Part shown: positions 9,299-36,736 of the stretch, piece by piece
How the letters are laid out: each line of letters opens with the position of its first letter
How positions within the stretch are numbered: the first letter of the stretch is position 1
NCBI GenBank assembly: GCA_903930255.1
Contig: CAIYYA010000066.1
Span: 1-48,674 of the forward strand
Direction of reading: 5' to 3'
DNA from: an uncultured beta proteobacterium
GTDB taxonomy: Bacteria; Pseudomonadota; Gammaproteobacteria; Burkholderiales; Burkholderiaceae_C
Length of the DNA: 48,674 bases
Position numbers and translations under genes: made by a program
Notes under the pieces: model-generated
Database searches by the model: none
What the model was told of the DNA's origin: nothing
What the model saw: only the letters and a program-made list of their open reading frames with translations

Positions 9299-9555
9299 AG
9301 AGTGGTTTCCTTTTAATGTGAGATGGGTGCTAGCTTGCGATGCTACGCTGCAGCTAACCAGATTTGTCTCCACCCGTTTGTCATTGATGCGTTGGTGAAT
9401 GCTGGTTTCGCAAATTCTCCCACGAAAGAGTTACCAACATGCAACAAGCGCATAAGCGCATCGCTGCTAGCGCTGTTTGTTTCATGATTAATTCGGCTCA
9501 ACTAATCGGCGAAGCGCAGCAATATTGGCGCAATTCGGGCCAAGGACTTTGTAGA

Positions 9556-10548
9556 ATGACCAACTTTACAAAAACCTGCCCGGCACACCTGTCCATGCTG
9601 CACGACGAAAACGCCATCGCTCAATTATTCGAATCGCCTTCGAGTAAGCCGCGTTTGCTAATCGTTGACGATCAGCCGATCAACATCCAGGTGATGTATC
9701 AAATTTTTGCCGGTCAATATCAGGTTTTCATGGCAACCAAAGGTGCCCAGGCGATTGATTTTTGCCGACGCACCCCCCCCGACCTGATTTTGCTCGACGT
9801 AGTGATGCCTGAGATGGACGGATTCGAGGTTTGCTCTGCTCTCAAGGCTGACCCAGCCACGCGCGACATTCCCATTATTTTTGTCACAGCACACACCGAG
9901 TCGGCACAAGAAACCCGCGGTATCGAAGCCGGCGCGGTCGATTTCATCACCAAACCGGTCAACCCTGCCGTGGTGCGAGCACGCGTTAAAGCACAGCTCA
10001 CGCTGAAATTCCAATCTGACCTGATGCGAAAACTGGTGTTTCTGGACGGATTGACCAGCGTTTTTAACCGCCGCTACTTCGACCAGCAACTGGCCATTGA
10101 AATGGCACGCGCCATTCGAGCCCACACGCCAATGGCCTTAATCATGCTCGATGTTGATTTTTTCAAGCGCTATAACGACCATTACAGTCACCAAACCGGT
10201 GACGACTGTTTGCGCCAAGTCGCGCACACACTCAAAGAAAGTCTGCGTCGCCCAGCCGATCTGGTGGCACGCTATGGTGGCGAAGAGTTTGTCTGCATCC
10301 TGCCCGACACCGCCTTTGCTGATGCGCTGAACATAGCCGCTGAGCTTGAAGCCAATGTGCGCCTTAAAGCCATGCCGCACGCCGACTCGAGCGTCGCCAG
10401 TGTGGTAACAGTGAGCTTGGGCGTTGCGGGCTTCAGCGGCCAATGGCCTGCTCAAGCCAGCGCATTGCTGGCTTTGGCCGATGCGCAGCTTTACGCAGCC
10501 AAACATGCAGGGCGCGCACGCGCCTGCGGCGCCGAACTGACACCCTGA
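9556..10548 (+). CDS. REC-GGDEF response regulator (diguanylate cyclase)
   Basis: 330 residues from ATG 9556, chosen because AAGGA lies nine bases upstream; earlier starts (9439) have no such site. The receiver domain has LLIVDDQPINIQ, phospho-acceptor D81 in LILLDVVMPEMDG, then FVTAHTE and the KP pair in FITKPVNP. A GGDEF domain follows with active-site RYGGEEF (GGEEF at 241-245). Five residues before it lies RPAD, the RxxD inhibitory site, so product inhibition by c-di-GMP is expected. The protein is cytoplasmic and makes c-di-GMP from two GTP when phosphorylated. The next gene, a hybrid kinase, starts 13 bp downstream on the same strand and is the obvious partner. Confidence 0.95.
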   Translation: MTNFTKTCPAHLSMLHDENAIAQLFESPSSKPRLLIVDDQPINIQVMYQIFAGQYQVFMATKGAQAIDFCRRTPPDLILLDVVMPEMDGFEVCSALKADPATRDIPIIFVTAHTESAQETRGIEAGAVDFITKPVNPAVVRARVKAQLTLKFQSDLMRKLVFLDGLTSVFNRRYFDQQLAIEMARAIRAHTPMALIMLDVDFFKRYNDHYSHQTGDDCLRQVAHTLKESLRRPADLVARYGGEEFVCILPDTAFADALNIAAELEANVRLKAMPHADSSVASVVTVSLGVAGFSGQWPAQASALLALADAQLYAAKHAGRARACGAELTP

Positions 10549-10561
10549 TGCAACAGCAACC

Positions 10562-14029
<3,468 letters not shown>

Positions 14030-25436: not shown

Positions 25437-27281
25437 TCATATCTTGAAAAATCGCATGGTTTGCTGCAACTGCTCGGCCTGGCTGCTCATCTCTTCAGAG
25501 GTGGCAGCCAACTCTTCAGAGGCCGAGGCATTTTGCTGGGTGGTCTGGCTCAATTGACCCACGGCCGAGTTGATTTGCCCAACCCCGCTGCTTTGCTCGG
25601 TCGAGGCTGCGGTGATCTCTTGCACCAAATCACTGGTCTTGCGGATATTGGGCACGATTTCGGCCAGCAAACGGCCGGCTTTTTCGGCCAGCGCCACGCT
25701 GTTGCCGGCGACTTCACCAATTTCTTGCGCAGCCACCTGACTGCGCTCGGCCAGTTTGCGCACTTCGGCCGCAACCACGGCAAAACCCTTGCCGTGTTCG
25801 CCGGCACGCGCCGCTTCGATAGCTGCATTCAAGGCCAGCAGGTTGGTCTGCGCCGCAATGTCGTCGATGATGCCAATTTTTTTGGCAATCTGTTTCATGG
25901 CCTCGACGGTGGCTGTTACGGCCAGTCCACCCTCCACCGCATCTTTCGCCGCCTTGCTGGCCATGCCATCGGTCATCTTGGCGTTGTCGGTGTTTTGTGC
26001 GATGCTGCTGGTCATTTGCTCCAGGCTGGCGCTGGTTTGCTCGACCCCGGCGGCCTGTTCACTGGCGGCCTGGCTCAATGATTGCGCTGTGGCACTGATC
26101 TCTTCGGCAGCACTACCCAGCGATTGCGCTCCGCCATTGACATCGCTGACCACCTGATTGAGCTTGGTCACCATGCTTTTCATGGCAAACAGCAGGCTTG
26201 AGTGGTCTCGTTCCTTGAGCACAATGTCCAGCGTCAGATTGCCAGCCGCTACTTGCCGGGCTATTTCAGTCGCATAAATGGGTTCACCGCCCAGGCCACG
26301 CAGCACATTGCGAATGATCCAAAACGACAAGGCGCTGGTGAGCACCACGCAAAGCAGGGTCAGCGCCACGTACCACATCAGTTTTTGATAGGCTGCGCCA
26401 GCCATGCTGCTGGAGACGGCTAACACATCTTTGGCCAGTTTTTGCTCGATTTGATAGATGGCATTGATGCGTGCCGTGGCTTGCTCAAACCACACCTCAC
26501 TGTCCACGCCAAACTTGCCGCTTATATTTTTCTCAAACACAAGCTCGCGCATTTTCAGCACGTTTTTGGCAGCCTCTTGGGTGGCCACGCTCTGAAAAGA
26601 GCGGAGTTCACCTTCTTCAGCATAGGATGAGAAAACCTCAAAATTCACGTCTTGCTTGTAAAGTCGTTCCAAAAAGGCTTTGTACTCCTGGGTGCTCATG
26701 GCATCGGCAACAAAAATAGCCGTTAAAAAGGCGCGCTCTTGTCCCGCCCACTCTTTGCCTTTGAGCAAAGCAAAATACGATGTGAGTTGGTGGGAGACAG
26801 CCACATCAACGTCCTGGATGGAGATGCTTTCTAACGATTTCAGCAAGACCGCAATGGTTTGTGTGAAATACGCTGCCGTTTGACCCCCGGTTTTTTTCAA
26901 GGCCGATATCTCGTCTCTGGCCTTGGGCAAGTCGGCCAGCCGTTCCAGACTTTGCGCGACCAACTCGGCGGATGCAGATTTGGCCACATTTCTCAAAGCA
27001 TCCAGACTGCGATCGGTCGCACTGCGGCGTGTGGCCATGGCATCGGCAAACTTCTTGCCCTGCGTTTGGCTAAACCCGGCACTGTTGCCGCGTTCCACCT
27101 GCAGGTTGTGAATGGCATCACCCAGCGCCGTGGCCAGCGGCATCAATTGGGCTGTCGCCTGAGTGTTTTGGTACTGAAGCGATGCGTTGTGCGCGCCAAT
27201 ACCGGCAGAGATCATGAGCGCCAACAGCGGCAGGGTGACCAGCAGCAAGAGTTTGCTGACGATGGAGTTGAAGAGTTTCAT
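25437..27281 (-). CDS. Methyl-accepting chemotaxis protein with NIT (nitrate/nitrite-sensing-like) domain
   Basis: 614 residues. TM1 (about 10-29), a helical periplasmic NIT-type domain (about 40-295; [20 protein letters not shown] is the characteristic QxERGxSAGF start), TM2 (about 298-322), HAMP, and an MCP signalling domain from about 385 to the end. The hairpin tip reads [20 protein letters not shown] followed by [17 protein letters not shown]. The protein ends at MRFFKI with no NWETF-type CheR-docking tail. NIT domains are associated with nitrate and nitrite sensing, but the ligand is unproven here. Its signalling half is nearly identical to that of the MCP at 27963. It is the last chemoreceptor of the che operon, after cheW and a 114-bp gap. 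Confidence 0.95.
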
Positions 27282-27395: not shown

Positions 27396-27950
27396 TCACT
27401 GACTCAGTTCAGCACAGGCTGCCACCTGCCCCATCTGGCCAATTTCTTCGTTCGACAAGACACGGTTGACATTCAGCAAGATGACAAATTTGCCCGCCAC
27501 CTTGGCAATGCCCTGAATAAAGTCGTGGCGAATCTTGGCACCAAAGCTGGGTGCTGGTTCAATCTCACTGGATGGAATTTCCAGCACGGCTTGCACCGAG
27601 TCCACCACAATGCCCATGTTTTGATGCTCGCCCTCGGTGGCGGTCGGCACCTCGACAATCACAATGCAACTGCTTTTGATCACCGGTGTGCTGGGTCTGC
27701 CAAAGCGCCGGGACAGGTCCAGCACCGGCACCACGGCACCGCGCAGGTTGATGACCCCGCGAATGCAGGCCGGCATCATCGGCACCTCAGTCAGGTTGGC
27801 GTACCAGATGATCTCTTTGATGCACCAAATCTCCAGCGAAAACATCTCGCCACCCAAATTGAAAGTCAGGTATTGTTTTGCCTCGACAGGGCTTGCTGAA
27901 TGTGCTTTGACAGCTATCTTTTTTGAGTCCGTCTTGACCAATGCGTGCAT
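27396..27950 (-). CDS. cheW: Chemotaxis coupling protein CheW
   Basis: 184 residues, slightly longer than usual because of a 25-residue charged N-terminal leader before the domain. CheW signature: YLTFNLGGEMFSLEIWCIKE, NLTEVPMMPACIRGVINLRG, AVVPVLDLSRRFG, IVIVEV, MGIVVDSVQAVLEIPSSEIE and KVAGKFVILLNVNRVLS. It bridges chemoreceptors and CheA in cytoplasmic arrays. GGAG lies seven bases before the ATG, and the preceding MCP stop is 12 bp upstream, so the two are co-transcribed. Confidence 0.96.
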   Translation of the reverse strand: MHALVKTDSKKIAVKAHSASPVEAKQYLTFNLGGEMFSLEIWCIKEIIWYANLTEVPMMPACIRGVINLRGAVVPVLDLSRRFGRPSTPVIKSSCIVIVEVPTATEGEHQNMGIVVDSVQAVLEIPSSEIEPAPSFGAKIRHDFIQGIAKVAGKFVILLNVNRVLSNEEIGQMGQVAACAELSQ

Positions 27951-29715: not shown

Positions 29716-31911
29716 TTAATGACCCACCGCTGAAGCCAGCGCCGCTCGCGCTGCATAAGGCAACTCGGCTTTGGCCATAGCCTGGCGCACCAGCTGCGGC
29801 ACATCCAGAATCAGCGCCACATCGCCACTGCCCAAAATGGTCGAGCCACTGATGCACTTGCTTTGTGCAAACATCTGCCCCAGCGGTTTGATCACCGTCT
29901 GAAACTCGCCCAGCAAGGTGTCCACCACCAAGCCGGCCTTTTGCCCGGCATGCTTTAAGACCACAATGTTTTCGCCTTTGGCGGCCTTGCCCGGCACCGA
30001 GAACAGCTCACGAATGCGGATGAACGGCAGCACCTCTCCGCGCAGGTTGGTGTAGTCGTGCTCCGGCTCGGCGCTGTAGGCCACACATTCTTCGATCATG
30101 TCCAGCGGGATCGCGTATACCGACTTGTCAACGCCGACCAAAAAGCCGTCGATGATGGCCAAAGTGAGTGGCAAGCGCACGGTGACGGTGGTGCCCACGC
30201 CTTCTTCGCTGCTGATGCCGACCGTGCCGCGCAGGGCTGTGATGTTGCGTTTGACCACATCGAGCCCAACGCCCCGACCTGAGAGGTTGGTGATTTTTTC
30301 GGCCGTGGAAAAGCCCGGCTCAAAGATCAGCGCGTAGATCTCGCTGTCGCTCATGTGGTGACCGGGCTCAACCAGCCCGCGCTCAATGGCTTTGGCCAGA
30401 ATTTTGTCTTTTTTGAGGCCACCGCCGTCGTCTTGCACGGTGATCACAATGGCACCGGAGTCGTGGTAGGCGTTGAGTTTTAAGGTGCCCTGCTCGGGTT
30501 TGCCGCGTGCAGCGCGCACTTGGGCACTTTCGATGCCGTGGTCCATGCTGTTGCGCACCAGGTGCATCAGCGGGTCGCCAATTTTTTCGACCACGGTTTT
30601 GTCGAGCTCGGTTTCTTCGCCGTCGATCACCAAGCAAATGTTTTTTCCCAGCTCGCGTGAGACGTCGTGCACCACGCGCTGAAATCGGCTAAAGGTGGCA
30701 CCGATGCGCACCATGCGCAGTTGCAGGGCACTGTCGCGCACTTCTTCGACCAGGGTGGCCAGTTTGGAGGTGGATTCGGTGAGTTCGATGACCCGCGAGC
30801 GGTGCGCAATCATGTTGACGCTGGCACCAGCAATGATGAGCTCGCCCACCAGGTTGATGAGCTGGTCGAGCTTGTCGGCATCGACGCGAATCGAGCGGCT
30901 TTCGGCAGCGCCAATTTCTTTGACCTGTTTTTGTTTGGTCAGCGCGGCTTCAACAACCTCGGGTTGCACCGAGCCTTGTTCGACCAAAATGGTGCCGATG
31001 GGTTTGTTGGGTGTGTCGGCCTGGGCGTTGAGCGCAATGTCGAGCTCTTGGGAGGTGAGTGTTCCGCAGCGCACCAGCATATCGCCCAAGCGGCTCATTT
31101 CGCCTTGTTGCAGGCTGATGAAGCTGATGTATTCAGAGATCAGGCTGTGCGGCGGCAAGATCACCAGGCGGCAGTCGTCGCGCACAAATTCAAACACCTT
31201 CTCAATCGAAGCTTTGTCTGCCTTGGTTTGAAACGCCATCTCAAAACCCAGGTAGCACAGCTCGGGGTCCATTTGCTCGGCAGCGGGCAGTGCATCAGCT
31301 ATGGTTTCAATGCCGGTGATTTTGCCCATGGTGCCCAGGTAGCGGATGAACGAAAGGGGGTCCATGCCGTTGCGCAGCACATCGGGGCCAAAGCGCATTG
31401 AAATATGCCAGTGGTCGGCGTTGGCTGTGTTGGCATGGATGCGTTGCACCTGCTCGGTGTCATTTTGGTCGATAGCGCTTATGACTGTTGCGCGAGCAGC
31501 TTCTTTTTTAGGAGCATCCAGATAGGTGCGAAGTTGCTGCACAAGTGGCTCGCCCTGGGACAGCAGCTCCGGCGTGCCTTTGTGTTCACCGGCAGCTACC
31601 CCGTCAACCAAGTCGCCAATATGGTCATTGCAAGCCAGCAGCAGCACCACCAGTTGGTCGGCCAGCGCCAGTTTGCCGGCGCGCACTTTGTCGAGCACGC
31701 TTTCCACCACGTGGGTAAACGCCACCACATGGTTCAGGCTGAACAAGCCCGATGAGCCTTTGATGGTGTGTGCAGCCCGAAAGATGGCGTTGACCATTTC
31801 GCTTTTGTCGTCGGCGCCTGCTACGCCCAGCAGGGCCGATTCCATATCTTCAAGCAGCTCCCTGCATTCAATGATGAAGGTCTCCAGTGCGTCATCCAAA
31901 TCCAGATCCAT
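29716..31911 (-). CDS. cheA: Chemotaxis histidine kinase CheA with an internal MshEN-like tandem motif
   Basis: 731 residues. P1 Hpt domain with H48 (FRAAHTIKGSSGLF); an Ala-rich linker (about 131-150) that may contain a repeat-derived insert; a regulatory P2-like domain (about 168-265; ISMRFGPDVLRNGMDPLSFI, MDPELCYLGFEM); a tandem 24-residue repeat at 274-297 and 304-327 (RLGDMLVRCGTLTSQELDIA then PIGTILVEQGSVQPEVVEAA), matching the MshEN c-di-GMP-binding pattern; the P3 dimerisation domain (about 340-400, ending ALQLRMVRIG); the P4 kinase (HLVRNSMDHGIES, VQDDGGG, GRGVGLDVV); and a P5 CheW-like domain. It phosphorylates CheY in the cytoplasmic array. AAGGAG precedes the ATG, and the upstream STAS gene stops 1 bp before the start. 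Confidence 0.96.
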   Translation of the reverse strand: MDLDLDDALETFIIECRELLEDMESALLGVAGADDKSEMVNAIFRAAHTIKGSSGLFSLNHVVAFTHVVESVLDKVRAGKLALADQLVVLLLACNDHIGDLVDGVAAGEHKGTPELLSQGEPLVQQLRTYLDAPKKEAARATVISAIDQNDTEQVQRIHANTANADHWHISMRFGPDVLRNGMDPLSFIRYLGTMGKITGIETIADALPAAEQMDPELCYLGFEMAFQTKADKASIEKVFEFVRDDCRLVILPPHSLISEYISFISLQQGEMSRLGDMLVRCGTLTSQELDIALNAQADTPNKPIGTILVEQGSVQPEVVEAALTKQKQVKEIGAAESRSIRVDADKLDQLINLVGELIIAGASVNMIAHRSRVIELTESTSKLATLVEEVRDSALQLRMVRIGATFSRFQRVVHDVSRELGKNICLVIDGEETELDKTVVEKIGDPLMHLVRNSMDHGIESAQVRAARGKPEQGTLKLNAYHDSGAIVITVQDDGGGLKKDKILAKAIERGLVEPGHHMSDSEIYALIFEPGFSTAEKITNLSGRGVGLDVVKRNITALRGTVGISSEEGVGTTVTVRLPLTLAIIDGFLVGVDKSVYAIPLDMIEECVAYSAEPEHDYTNLRGEVLPFIRIRELFSVPGKAAKGENIVVLKHAGQKAGLVVDTLLGEFQTVIKPLGQMFAQSKCISGSTILGSGDVALILDVPQLVRQAMAKAELPYAARAALASAVGH
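31473..31501 (-). repeat. Possible intragenic copy of the mini-element, in the cheA linker
   Basis: TAGCGCTTAT.....TTGC.C.AGCAGCT on the plus strand matches copy A at 22 of 29 positions without gaps. It encodes the AARATVISAID segment of the P1-P2 linker (residues 138-148), a place where an insertion would be tolerated. Confidence 0.45.
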
Positions 31912-31912
31912 C

Positions 31913-32224
31913 TCAGCTCCTTGAATGGGTAGCCTGAGTGCGTGCAGCCATCACCAGCGGGTCACCAAAATAGCCTGCCACATTGAGCAGCTCAAAGACT
32001 TCGATGACAGCCGGGCTGTGACTCACCAATTGAAGGTCTCGACCTTGCCGTTGGGCGGTTTGTTTGACCAGCATCAGCAGTTGCACGCCAGCGGTATCCA
32101 GATCAGTCACGCCTGAAAGATCAATCTCGGTAACGGGCGGGGTAGCGAGCAACACTGGCTTCTGTTCCATGGCGCGAAAGATGGTCAGCTCGCCCTCAAT
32201 GCGCAGGGTATTGGGCACGCTCAT
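31913..32224 (-). CDS. STAS-domain protein (anti-sigma-factor-antagonist-like) in the che operon
   Basis: 103 residues from ATG 32224, whose ATGA overlaps the stop of cheY by 4 bp; an upstream in-frame start at 32233 is less likely. The STAS fold is seen in LRIEGELTIFRAMEQKP and EIDLSGVTDLDTAGVQLLML, with threonine (DLDTAG) at the position that is often a phosphorylated serine, then LQLVSHSPAVIEVFELLNVA. Such small cytoplasmic proteins act as switchable partners of kinases or phosphatases, or as structural parts of chemosensory systems. The position between cheY and cheA, with tight spacing on both sides, points to a role in this signalling complex. Confidence 0.9.
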   Translation of the reverse strand: MSVPNTLRIEGELTIFRAMEQKPVLLATPPVTEIDLSGVTDLDTAGVQLLMLVKQTAQRQGRDLQLVSHSPAVIEVFELLNVAGYFGDPLVMAARTQATHSRS

Positions 32225-32589
32225 GGCAGGCACAGCCGCTGCACAGCACTCACCAGTTGATCCGGCTGAAACGGCTTGACCACCCAGGCGCGCGCACCTG
32301 CTGACTGGCCCTCGCGCTTTTTCTCTTCAGCCGACTCGGTCGTCAGCATGATGACTGGCGTGAATTTATAGGCCGGCATTTGTTTGACAGCTTTCAAAAA
32401 GGCGATGCCGTCCATGGTGGGCATGTTCACATCGCTGATGATCAGGTGTATTTTTTGCCCTTTGAGCTTGCTCAGTGCATCTTTGCCATCGATGCCTTCG
32501 ATGACGTCATAGCCCGCGCCCTTGAGTGCGATGCCGACGACACGCCGCATGGAGGCCGAATCGTCCACAATCATGATGAGTTTTGCCAT
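32221..32589 (-). CDS. cheY: CheY-type single-domain response regulator
   Basis: 122 residues. All receiver residues are present: D9-D10 ([11 protein letters not shown]), phospho-acceptor D53 ([13 protein letters not shown]), T83 (MLTTESAEE) and K105 (VVKPF). It accepts phosphate from CheA and, as there is no output domain, acts by binding a partner in the cytoplasm. AGAGGGG lies six bases before the ATG. The upstream MCP ORF runs 83 bp into this gene in another frame, through a probable lost stop codon. Downstream it overlaps the STAS gene by 4 bp. Confidence 0.96.
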
Positions 32590-33757
32590 GGTTTTCCCCT
32601 CTAAAAAAACTGATATCGGTTACGTTGCTTGGTTTGACTTGCCCGCCGGCATGAATCACATGCTGGTCTGCCATCACATAGCTGCTCTTCATCTCATCGA
32701 GCAGCGTCTGCACATCAATGGGCTGTAAAAGCTGACTTTGGGCATACTGCTGTTGCTGTTCAAGCAGCACTTGCGGCAGGCGGCTCAGGTTTTTGTTGAC
32801 CTGCGTCATGATCTGGCTGACACGGTCAGAGAACTGCATTTGCACCAGCGCCTGGTTAACCTCAGACTGGATGCCCACGCTTTCGTCTTTGAGCAAGGTG
32901 CTGGCACGCTGAAAGGCGTCGATGATGCTTCTGAAGTCTTCCAATACGGTCGTGATAGTGTCGCTGGCGGCAGCAGCAGAGCCGTCCTCCGCCACGACCG
33001 CTTGCTGCACCACGCTACAGGTTTCTTGAATCGCGGCGTTGATCACACCGACCGTCTCGGCAATGCGTTTGCCGGCAGCACCAGACTGGCTGGACAGCAT
33101 GCGAAATTCTTTGGCCACCACGGCAAAACCGCGCCCGAGTTCACCCGCACGAGCCGCTTCTATGGCGGCGTTGAGTGCCAGCAAATTGGTTTGCTGGGCA
33201 ATTTGAGCCACGTCGTGCGCCATTTCTTGCAAATTCACAATGAACCCGCTCAGACCCTGCACCTTGGTAAGCATGGTTTGCATATTGACCATGGCTTTTT
33301 CTTGTGCGCTGATCAAGCCGCGCAGCCCGATCTCGCTTTTGGCAAATGCATCCACCAATCCGTGGCCGTTAGCCTCCACACTGTCGGTCTCATGGGTGGC
33401 GCTGCGCAGCGTCGCATCGAGCTTATCGACAATGCCGCCAAAGCGCTCTGACAGCGCGTTGATGGCATCGTCCATTTGGCTGCGCGAGGATTCAATGTGG
33501 TTTTGCCAGACCGGCACCAGCTTTTCTGCAAAGCGTGTTTGACCCGCCAGGTAGCCGCTAATGCCATGCAACAAGGCAAGTTGCTGTGCAGACAGGTGCG
33601 CTCCCAGCGCCAGCCCCATACCCAGTAGCGTCAGCGCGACCAGCACGGCTGGCCAGTTCAGTCCGGCCAGAGTCAGCACGGCTCCCGCTGCCACGCTGCC
33701 CAACGCAATCGGGTAGCCCAATTGCGGCTTGAATCGGCCACTGATTTGGCTAAGCAT
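32507..33757 (-). CDS. Membrane-anchored methyl-accepting chemotaxis protein, C-terminus extended into cheY
   Basis: 416 residues. Two adjacent N-terminal membrane helices (about 17-55) with no periplasmic domain, a cytoplasmic coiled coil, and a compact MCP signalling region ([34 protein letters not shown]) at about 195-230. It therefore probably senses an internal or membrane signal. The expected C-terminus is TDISFF: the codons run AGT TTT TTT AGA, and one more T in the T7 run (32603-32609) would give TTT TTT TAG and stop just before the cheY Shine-Dalgarno. As written, the frame continues 29 residues, rich in H, R and C, overlapping cheY by 83 bp. The start overlaps the preceding gene by 8 bp. 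Confidence 0.88.
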
Positions 33758-34170: not shown

Positions 34171-36261
34171 TCAGTCGAGTGCCAGCGCCGACAGAAATAT
34201 CGGCTCCTTTTGCTCTACCAATGCCTCAAAAGCCGCCACGGCCAACGGTCGCCCAAACAAATAGCCCTGAAATTCTTTGCACCCGTTGGCGCGTAAAAAA
34301 TCGCATTGCGCACTAGACTCCACGCCTTCGGCAATCACCGCCATGCCCAGACTTTGCCCCAGGGTGATAACGGCTCGAACGATCGCTGCGTCATGGGGGT
34401 CATCCAACACACTCTGCACGAAAGACTGGTCAATTTTGAGCTGATCGATCGGAAATCGCTTGAGATAACTTAGCGACGAGTAGCCCGTGCCAAAATCGTC
34501 CAGAGAGAATCGGACGCCGTGACGCTTCAGAATCAGCATCTTTTCAATCACCGCGTTGACATCTCGAACCATCATGCCCTCGGTTAATTCGAGTTCAAGT
34601 CGAGCCGGATTCGCCCCGGTTTGTTCCAATGCATCAATCACTTGTTGCACAAAATCGCTTTGATGAAATTGCTTGGGACTGACATTGACCGACAGCGTGA
34701 GATGTTGCATGGCACTGCGATGCGACCATAAAACCAGTTGCTCACAAGCACGCCGCAGAACCCAGGCGCCAATCTGAATAATGAGTCCGGTCTCTTCGGC
34801 CAGCGGGATAAAGAGTGCGGGTGAAATGTGCCCTTGCTCAGGGTGCTGCCACCGAATCAACGCCTCGGCACCAAAAGGCACACCCTGGCTGCTGGTTTGA
34901 ATCTGATAGTGCAAGGCAAACTGCTGCGGCAAACCCTGGCGCATCCACTCCGTTAGCGTGAATCGGGTCTGCAGCGTAGCCTGTGTTGCCGCGTCAAAAA
35001 AACGAATCGCGTTGTATTTAACCTCTTTGGCGTGGTGCATCGCAGTCTCGGCACGCGTAACCAAAGCCGAGGGTTCAACGGCCAACCCCTTGAACAAACA
35101 AATGCCAATGCCGGCTGATGCGGGATGGCTGTGCCCCTTCAGATCAAATGGTTCACTGAATGTCTCAATGATCCGATTGGCCACGATTTCGGCCTTTTCA
35201 GCGGCAATTGAGCTTTGCGCATCAAGCTCCTCCAAAATCACAACAAATTCGTCACCCCCAAGACGTGCCAAAGTGTCAGTGGTGTACAGGCAGCCCTTTA
35301 AGCGCTGTGTTACCTGAATCAGCATCTGGTCACCTATCTTGTGTTCCATTGCATCATTGAGATTTTTGAAATCATCCAGATCAATCAGCAGCACAGCGCC
35401 GTGGCTTTGGTTGCGCTCGCTGCTGATTAAGGCTTGTTGCAAGCGGTCGAGCATCAACATGCGATTGGGCAGCTCGGTCAATGCGTCATAAAAAGACAGG
35501 CGATGCAGCCGATCTTCAGATTGACGACTTTCGCTCAAATCGACAAAGGCGAGCACAAAATGTGACACGTGGCCTGATTCGTTGGCAACCGCCATGACAC
35601 TGAGTTTCACCGGATAGGTTTCGCCATTTTTGCGCCGGTCTTGCACCTCGCCGCGCCAAAACATATCAGCGGGTGAACGGTTTTTAATTTCCCAAAATGC
35701 TCTCAAATCCGGCTGATTGAGGCGAATAATCGACGACTTTTTGCCGATTGCCTCTGTAGCGCTATAGCCTGTGATGCCAGAAAAAGCCACATTCACCTTT
35801 AATATGGACAGGTCTGCATCCAAGATCAGCATGCCCTCAACCGACTCAAAAGAAGACTGTGCCAAAAGCAAATCGCGCTCCATCTGATGGCGCACGCTGA
35901 GATCACGAAAAAAAGCGCAGTATTCGACTGCCCGGTTGGTCTTGATCATCGTCAGTGTTAACTCGATCGCAAGCTCATGACCCAAGCGGTGCAAACCGGC
36001 AGTCTCCAGACGCACGCTCGACAGAGTGGGGGTTTGAGCCCGAGCAAAAGCGCTGATAAGCCTTGCACGATAGCGCTGTGGCAAAACGACGTCGTAGAAC
36101 GCTCGGCCCATGACTTCCACACGAGGCCAACCAAAAAGACTTTCAGCCTGCTGGTTCCAGCCTTGGATGAGACCCGACGAATCGATCCGTATCGCCGCAT
36201 CAAGCGACGCATCGAGCAACACCTGCAGCAAAGCTATCTCTGCATCATGTTCGGTTGACAT
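34171..36261 (-). CDS. PAS-PAS-GGDEF-EAL bifunctional c-di-GMP enzyme
   Basis: 696 residues from ATG 36261 with GAGAAAG six bases upstream; the longer frame from 36366 lies mostly inside the hemerythrin gene. No membrane segment. PAS 1 (about 15-130; AAIRIDSSGLIQGWNQQAES), PAS 2 (about 135-255; GKKSSIIRLNQPDL), GGDEF (LARLGGDEFVVI, 335-339 intact; the inhibitory RxxD position reads YTTD, so no I-site), then EAL with all expected residues: E466 (EALIRW), SVNVSPKQF, LELELTEGMMV, DDFGTGYSSL, KIDQSFV and AEGVES. Both synthesis and hydrolysis of c-di-GMP look possible. The gene overlaps the upstream hemerythrin by 17 bp, suggesting oxygen-linked control. Confidence 0.95.
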   Translation of the reverse strand: MSTEHDAEIALLQVLLDASLDAAIRIDSSGLIQGWNQQAESLFGWPRVEVMGRAFYDVVLPQRYRARLISAFARAQTPTLSSVRLETAGLHRLGHELAIELTLTMIKTNRAVEYCAFFRDLSVRHQMERDLLLAQSSFESVEGMLILDADLSILKVNVAFSGITGYSATEAIGKKSSIIRLNQPDLRAFWEIKNRSPADMFWRGEVQDRRKNGETYPVKLSVMAVANESGHVSHFVLAFVDLSESRQSEDRLHRLSFYDALTELPNRMLMLDRLQQALISSERNQSHGAVLLIDLDDFKNLNDAMEHKIGDQMLIQVTQRLKGCLYTTDTLARLGGDEFVVILEELDAQSSIAAEKAEIVANRIIETFSEPFDLKGHSHPASAGIGICLFKGLAVEPSALVTRAETAMHHAKEVKYNAIRFFDAATQATLQTRFTLTEWMRQGLPQQFALHYQIQTSSQGVPFGAEALIRWQHPEQGHISPALFIPLAEETGLIIQIGAWVLRRACEQLVLWSHRSAMQHLTLSVNVSPKQFHQSDFVQQVIDALEQTGANPARLELELTEGMMVRDVNAVIEKMLILKRHGVRFSLDDFGTGYSSLSYLKRFPIDQLKIDQSFVQSVLDDPHDAAIVRAVITLGQSLGMAVIAEGVESSAQCDFLRANGCKEFQGYLFGRPLAVAAFEALVEQKEPIFLSALALD

Positions 36262-36736
36262 CAAAGCTTTCTCGGTGCTGATGCCATGCGGCTGACTGCC
36301 TGGCGGGTGTGTCGTGTGTCTCGTGCGCAAGCACCAAATGAGCCAACTCTTGATCGGCAACAGCAATGTGACTGATTAACCAGATTTCCAGGTAGTGCCC
36401 CAAATCTTCGGCAATTTCAGTGTCAGTCTTGCTTGAGCGCCGCTGGTTCCAAACCTCTATATCATGCGCAAATTCACGGTGCTGCAGCACATGCTGGCGT
36501 TCAGATTCGGTTCCGCCAGCCACCCGCGCCAACATAGTCTCTTCTTCGCTGAAGTGGAATAAGGCATAGGTTTTTAAGCTGGGCAGCAAATCATCGAGCG
36601 CTTGGGTAGACTGACCGGCTTCATGCATCGCGATCAACTCATTGGTTTTTGAAAACAATTCGTAATGCTGCAGGTCGATCGCCCGATGCCCCGTATTCAG
36701 ACCAGCATGCCAGTCCACTCGTTGTTTATGCTTCAT
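36245..36736 (-). CDS. Bacteriohemerythrin with C-terminal extension
   Basis: 163 residues, about 30 longer than a minimal hemerythrin. Di-iron ligands: H24 (DLQHYELF), H61 and E65 (HFSEEE), H82 and H86 (QHVLQH), H123 and D128 (HIAVAD). A His-rich tail (LAHETHDTPARQSAAWHQHR) follows. It should bind O2 in the cytoplasm. GAGGGAG precedes the ATG. It overlaps the SRAP gene upstream by 4 bp and the PAS-GGDEF-EAL gene downstream by 17 bp, so the three are translated from one message. In other bacteria hemerythrin domains are fused to diguanylate cyclases, which makes control of the neighbour by oxygen plausible. Confidence 0.95.
   Translation of the reverse strand: MKHKQRVDWHAGLNTGHRAIDLQHYELFSKTNELIAMHEAGQSTQALDDLLPSLKTYALFHFSEEETMLARVAGGTESERQHVLQHREFAHDIEVWNQRRSSKTDTEIAEDLGHYLEIWLISHIAVADQELAHLVLAHETHDTPARQSAAWHQHRESFDVNRT

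Follow-up and report, generated by a model that had tools for sequence, protein, structure and literature searches.

An MshEN-type domain precedes the dimerisation domain of a CheA kinase in a Rhodoferax-like bacterium and in its relatives

Chemotaxis gene row and cheA product

The window, i.e., the whole stretch of 48,674 nucleotides analysed here (contig CAIYYA010000066.1), contains a row of chemotaxis genes arranged in the order MCP, CheY-like, STAS, CheA, MCP, CheW and NIT-MCP, together with two genes for GGDEF proteins. The cheA gene was delimited by its open reading frame, domain search and a 34-row alignment, and the other genes by domain search:

34171..36366, minus strand: PAS-GGDEF-EAL gene, next upstream of the chemotaxis row
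32507..33757, minus strand: MCP gene, 416 aa
32221..32589, minus strand: CheY-like receiver gene
31913..32233, minus strand: STAS-domain gene, upstream of cheA
29716..31911, minus strand: cheA, 731 aa
27963..29645, minus strand: MCP gene with a 4HB sensor, downstream of cheA
27396..27950, minus strand: cheW gene
25437..27281, minus strand: MCP gene with a NIT sensor
9439..10548, plus strand: REC-GGDEF gene, about 19 kb away

The REC-GGDEF and PAS-GGDEF-EAL genes named in the first-pass annotation are thus both present, as circumstantial elements. The STAS, CheY and GGDEF neighbours of cheA are an association only, circumstantial for function, and we rejected them as proof of what CheA does. 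Closely after the REC-GGDEF gene, and on the same strand, lies a hybrid histidine kinase gene, whose product has an Hpt domain and two receiver stretches (window positions 9439-14029 for both genes), and the pair likely constitutes a phosphorelay over c-di-GMP synthesis. Related chemotaxis rows on Aeromonas and Pseudomonas plasmids go on with cheR, and those of Pseudomonas also with cheD and cheB; none of the 6 CheR matches of the assembly is located on the window's contig.

The protein is assigned to CheA by four Pfam domains, all scoring over their cut-offs:

31630..31890, minus strand: Hpt (P1) domain, CheA residues 8-94
30721..30900, minus strand: H-kinase_dim (P3) dimerisation domain, CheA residues 338-397
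30163..30576, minus strand: HATPase_c (P4) domain, CheA residues 446-583
29782..30147, minus strand: CheW-like domain (P5), CheA residues 589-710

The phosphoacceptor His48 in the Hpt box, as well as the kinase boxes N454/D457/H458, D494/G496/G498 and G545/G547/G549, fall in invariant columns of the 34-row alignment. The assembly also holds a second copy of this CheA, 87% identical and with a frame break near residue 142 (L047, G000:C126:7300-9800), and a CheA fragment at a contig start, 78% identical (L060, G000:C206:1-900); given the estimated contamination of 6.5%, both may stem from related strains whose DNA entered the assembly.

A tandem motif pair of MshEN type

Ahead of the dimerisation domain, CheA carries a motif pair that was located by translation and alignment and recognised by NCBIfam and PDB profiles:

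30931..31092, minus strand: MshEN_N-type motif pair, of c-di-GMP-binding type, CheA residues 274-327 (NF053729 and PDB profiles)
31021..31092, minus strand: motif 1, CheA residues 274-297, RLGDMLVRCGTLTSQELDIALNAQ
30931..31002, minus strand: motif 2, CheA residues 304-327, PIGTILVEQGSVQPEVVEAALTKQ, with Pro and not Arg as first residue

The translation agrees to the base with the two tandem 24-residue motifs and 6-residue spacer (5 in MshE) first proposed for this protein, and with the retention of Arg, Leu, Gly and Gln in motif 1 and the change of Arg to Pro in motif 2. Gly3, the hydrophobic residues at positions 2, 17 and 21, and Gln24 are present in both motifs (L/G/L/L/Q and I/G/V/L/Q), while the first-residue Arg (R/K/L when extended) is found in motif 1 but not in motif 2. 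The pair ends at residue 327 and H-kinase_dim starts at residue 338, with 10 residues between them, so the placement just before the dimerisation domain stands; the "regulatory domain" supposed to precede the motifs, in turn, has no Pfam match up to E = 10.

The MshEN type proposed from the letters was borne out by the NCBIfam model NF053729 (c-di-GMP_motif, MshE-related; 53 positions; cut-off of 38 bits), which matches CheA residues 274-327 over model positions 1-53 of 53 with 45.2 bits (E = 5.8e-12); in a search of the whole assembly, which gave 8 matches at E <= 0.01, the top one is exactly 30931-31092, with 49.2 bits. Conversely, the Pfam MshEN profile (PF05157), which the first-pass annotation had put forward as a check and whose failure to match it would have taken as a refutation, matches neither the whole CheA protein nor two CheA fragments, nor, when the whole assembly is searched up to E = 10, the motif-pair site, nor any of 49 MshEN-type CheA domains up to E = 1. 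We infer that PF05157 misses the segment because its model is longer (90 positions), as the 53-position NF053729 and the PDB profiles match strongly. DUF4388 (PATAN, PF14332) was rejected as the identity of the segment, since its matches on CheA (window 30877-31161; E 0.0028 to 0.084) reach 13.4 to 18.1 bits, below the gathering score of 25. Weak DUF4388 matches at E up to 1 also occur in 33 of the 49 relatives' CheA domains (alignment A4), and PATAN proteins may hold a related helical repeat. Elsewhere in the assembly, an 851-aa open frame contains three overlapping NF053729 matches over the cut-off, a serial motif repeat (G000:C226:61256-61591), followed by a Pfam MshEN match at 61595-61837.

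Searches against the PDB pointed to the same domain. With phmmer, the full CheA matches Thermus PilF through CheA residues 271-329 (4.7e-7), and an 86-aa CheA segment matches PilF (7e-12), PilB (0.0011) and MshE (0.0078), although designed and unrelated proteins (best 0.0042) are also among its 21 PDB matches. When the domains of 33 relatives are combined into a profile (A1), PilF is found at 2.1e-20, MshE at 2e-8 and PilB at 3.6e-8; up to E = 10 this profile retrieves 14 distinct chains, each an MshEN domain of one of these three proteins. A wider profile of 49 domains finds 15 chains, the same type in 14 and PrsA at 2.7. The best PDB stretch, PilF 301-360, falls in the GSPII-C domain of Thermus thermophilus PilF, starting slightly before its published boundary (304-476; PMC11731258). 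GSPII-C shares with CheA the motif-2 Pro, Gly3 and Gln24, but belongs to a pilus assembly ATPase, where it is one of three GSPII domains, and it has a third motif; in the printed alignment its spacer counts 7 residues, compared to 6 in CheA. The N-terminal domain of Vibrio cholerae MshE (5htl), the profile match at 2e-8, likewise has two 24-residue motifs; unlike CheA, it has Arg first in both of them and a spacer of 5, and is followed by a C-terminal subdomain, whereas CheA enters P3 10 residues after the pair. NfrB-type glycosyltransferases, which are c-di-GMP-activated, are matched through the same domain by NCBIfam PRK15489 and NfrB, more weakly and with another output domain. On the strength of these profile comparisons, we conclude that CheA segment 274-327 of this Rhodoferax-like bacterium is a true MshEN_N-type domain.

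Conservation and distribution among CheA proteins

A CheA match at E <= 1e-60 was found in 45 of 60 genomes, the window's own included. By alignment, the MshEN domain is present in the orthologues of the window CheA and in a paralogue of about 48% identity (e.g., G000:C204), but the CheA of contig C226, where fliM and a cheR are also located, lacks it. A CheA of the same assembly without the domain (L057) shares the Hpt, dimerisation, ATPase and CheW-like domains, but lacks MshEN before P3 and lies on a separate branch of a kinase-core tree. Within the C204 paralogue (L056, G000:C204:20200-22600), motif 1 is intact, motif 2 has Lys as its first residue and a turn that is shifted, and NF053729 covers only the first half of the domain.

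In named genomes 9 loci were recovered, including Rhodoferax, Rubrivivax and Sulfuricella, and all 9 have the domain. Class and phylum loci were searched with a profile of the MshEN domain plus P3 (A3), which biases their recovery towards carriers, and the loci come from the top-scoring matches only. At the class level, 149 of 369 genomes match at E <= 1e-6, many through the P3 part only, and the best 29 new loci from these 149 (L063-L091, one genome each) all have the domain, with a degenerate motif 2 in L086. At the phylum level, 59 of 398 genomes match at E <= 1e-12, and among 18 new loci (L103-L120) a recognisable motif pair is found in 15 and none in 3 (L113-L115). The spacer is reduced to one residue or less in L116, L117 and L120, and the motif-1 Gln is absent in L111, L116 and L117; therefore, not all relatives need bind. 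NF053729 matches 48 of 49 relatives' domains taken from a set of 70 at E <= 0.001, and also 23 of 34 full CheAs, a number equal to that of carriers judged by alignment, the match count not naming its members.

The 70 are what is left of 89 rows once 19 were removed, these being fragments, truncated ends of split genes, and CheAs that lack the domain. Positions were counted by alignment on the 45 non-redundant rows of these 70; one CheA without the domain (L094) stays among the 45. This count was used instead of one based on a regular expression demanding Gly3 and Q, N or H at position 24, which is biased. Gly3 is kept in 44/45 rows in motif 1 and 43/45 in motif 2, and Gln24 in 43/45 in both; the turn Gly10 is kept in 43/45 rows in motif 1 and in only 23/45 in motif 2. 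This is as would be expected if the ligand contacts are under selection, and the domain is thus kept in the relatives' CheA with its contact residues nearly invariant, in line with what had been proposed as a check. Variation is seen at the first positions, as the motif-1 Arg is kept in only 25/45 rows and the first residue of motif 2 is P in 19, R in 8, Q in 5, L in 5, K in 3, V in 2, H in 2 and A in 1, and in the spacer, whose length in 35 rows spans 6-23 residues.

In a kinase-core tree of 80 CheAs, midpoint-rooted, with bootstrap not settled and a sampling that favours domain carriers, 10 CheAs without the domain separate from a group formed by the remaining 70, in which 66 members have the domain and 4 do not; four label changes are required. 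One of the CheAs without the domain inside this clade (L094, Xanthomonas sacchari plasmid NZ_CP010410.1) keeps the STAS neighbour, and an Ala/Pro-rich linker replaces the domain; by its sequence, it is a natural loss of MshEN. From the tree and the distribution of carriers, the domain looks old in a large CheA clade spanning many families, with some losses.

The gene surroundings were also compared. Among domain-bearing CheAs with 400 or more bases of flank, near-copies included, 43 of 54 have a STAS gene upstream; among CheAs lacking the domain it is 1 of 10, namely L094. A strong match to the window's PAS-GGDEF-EAL gene (E <= 1e-90) is found upstream in 3 of 8 domain-bearing loci with wide flanks (L037, L039 and L040), in each case separated from the chemotaxis row by another large ORF.

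Predicted ligand contacts and alternative explanations

In MshE, each guanine of c-di-GMP is stacked by the first-position Arg and bound by the backbone amides of Gly3 and the next residue, from which ligand specificity derives; a triangle of three Leu from both motifs holds the guanine, and Gln24 contacts the ribose and phosphate (PMC5013675). At these positions CheA motif 1 is complete by alignment, and motif 2 reads P, I, G, V, L, Q. Published measurements suggest that such departures may be tolerated. In PilF, GSPII-C has P335 at the motif-2 first position and binds c-di-GMP about as well as MshEN, and GSPII-B binds at 6 nM with Lys and Leu at the first positions (PMC11731258); a second report gives 324 nM and 12 nM for GSPII-B and GSPII-C "respectively" (PMC12002112), the reverse order, and we followed PMC11731258 because GSPII-B was measured alone there. 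A change of MshE Arg9 costs no more than fivefold (PMC5013675), and Ile in place of Leu at two contacts costs 2.4-fold (PMC12002112). Furthermore, isolated MshEN_N binds without MshEN_C with a Kd of 0.35 uM (PMC5013675), which matters because only 10 residues part the CheA motifs from the dimerisation domain. Given that c-di-GMP acts on histidine kinases elsewhere (CckA and a hybrid kinase), direct c-di-GMP sensing by CheA appears plausible on the basis of its motif residues.

The resemblance itself could have arisen by chance in an Ala- and Leu-rich helical linker; Pfam MshEN has no match, unrelated Pfam families also match such short helical stretches weakly, and designed or unrelated PDB proteins appear among the weak matches of the single-sequence search. 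This explanation is in effect refuted by the NF053729 match, the exclusively MshEN chains found by the A1 profile and the conservation of the domain over many families. A more serious contender is an MshEN relative that has lost c-di-GMP binding, as in XpsE and PilF GSPII-A, and that serves as a rigid spacer or as a docking site, e.g., for STAS or CheY. Here the motif-2 Arg is Pro, the motif-1 Arg and the spacer length vary in relatives, and GSPII-A loses binding with Ser as the first residue of motif 2 (PMC12002112); also in PMC12002112, a GSPII domain with restored consensus still did not bind in its native frame. The frequent STAS neighbour (43/54) would suit docking, but paralogues without a STAS neighbour retain the domain too. 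Against a loss of binding, the polar contacts Gly3 and Gln24 are near-invariant in both motifs while the motif-2 Gly10 drifts, and in the published loss-of-binding cases it is the contact Gly and Gln that are gone (PMC5013675, PMC12002112). On balance, we consider a non-binding domain unlikely, yet with a real share of the probability.

It would be far less probable still that the domain binds another nucleotide or ligand. MshEN does bind cGAMP weakly (PMC5013675) and Pro304 changes the guanine-2 pocket; against this, the amides of Gly3 and the next residue, on which MshE specificity depends (PMC5013675), are kept in CheA, and c-di-GMP enzymes are encoded nearby. We thus lean, with some confidence, towards regulation of this CheA kinase by c-di-GMP through its MshEN domain, a reading drawn from sequence comparison. 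For the whole Pseudomonadota CheA clade, with many members in an MCP-CheY-STAS-CheA row, direct gating by c-di-GMP via a built-in MshEN domain is a proposal whose chances we see as evenly poised.

Proposed mechanism and implications

Under regulation by c-di-GMP, the ligand would most likely be held between CheA motifs 1 and 2. With roles assigned by alignment from MshE, guanine one would be contacted by R274, the amides of G276-D277, L290, L294 and I305, with Q297 on the backbone, and guanine two by P304, the amides of G306-T307, V320, L324 and L275, with Q327. As only a short stretch separates the last residue of the motif pair (327) from the first of the dimerisation domain (338), closing of the helical bundle could shift or stiffen the N-terminal phosphoacceptor arm relative to the P3-P4 kinase core. 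The changed geometry might then alter, in either direction, CheA autophosphorylation or phosphotransfer, and hence CheY phosphorylation, and the second messenger would tune chemosensory output without a separate adaptor.

The first-pass annotation knew of no described CheA of this kind. This view has to be corrected, as Wang et al. (2016; PMC5013675) list CheA among the MshEN partners, the same domain in a chemotaxis kinase as here, and NF053729 already recognises the domain. The fusion receives a single sentence there, accompanied by a table and a figure in the supplement, the listed CheAs may belong to another clade, and the passages of that text on the fusion report no function for it. An experimental study of an MshEN-CheA was not found among the literature matches listed, and the relevant passages of PMC12943098, PMC12564702, PMC10519070, PMC7288161, PMC10333796, PMC10212136 and PMC5812497 hold no such experiment. 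A paper on Comamonas FlmA/CheA (PMC6391922) was rejected as a precedent, MshEN and STAS both being absent from its text in the excerpts considered. The fusion, already noted in print in 2016, looks old and widespread by its occurrence in sequenced genomes.

Reported links between c-di-GMP and chemotaxis include the MapZ adaptor on a methyltransferase, the PilZ chemoreceptor Cbp1 and YcgR at the motor. The 2016 remark on MshEN in CheA can now be put to a direct test with an approximately 70-residue fragment and a standard kinase assay. If MshEN gates CheA, the messenger governing the choice between swimming and settling would have the central kinase of the chemosensory array as its target, in a clade spanning many families; and if the reading for the clade is true, c-di-GMP would act there on the kinase itself, and not through PilZ adaptors, receptors or the motor.
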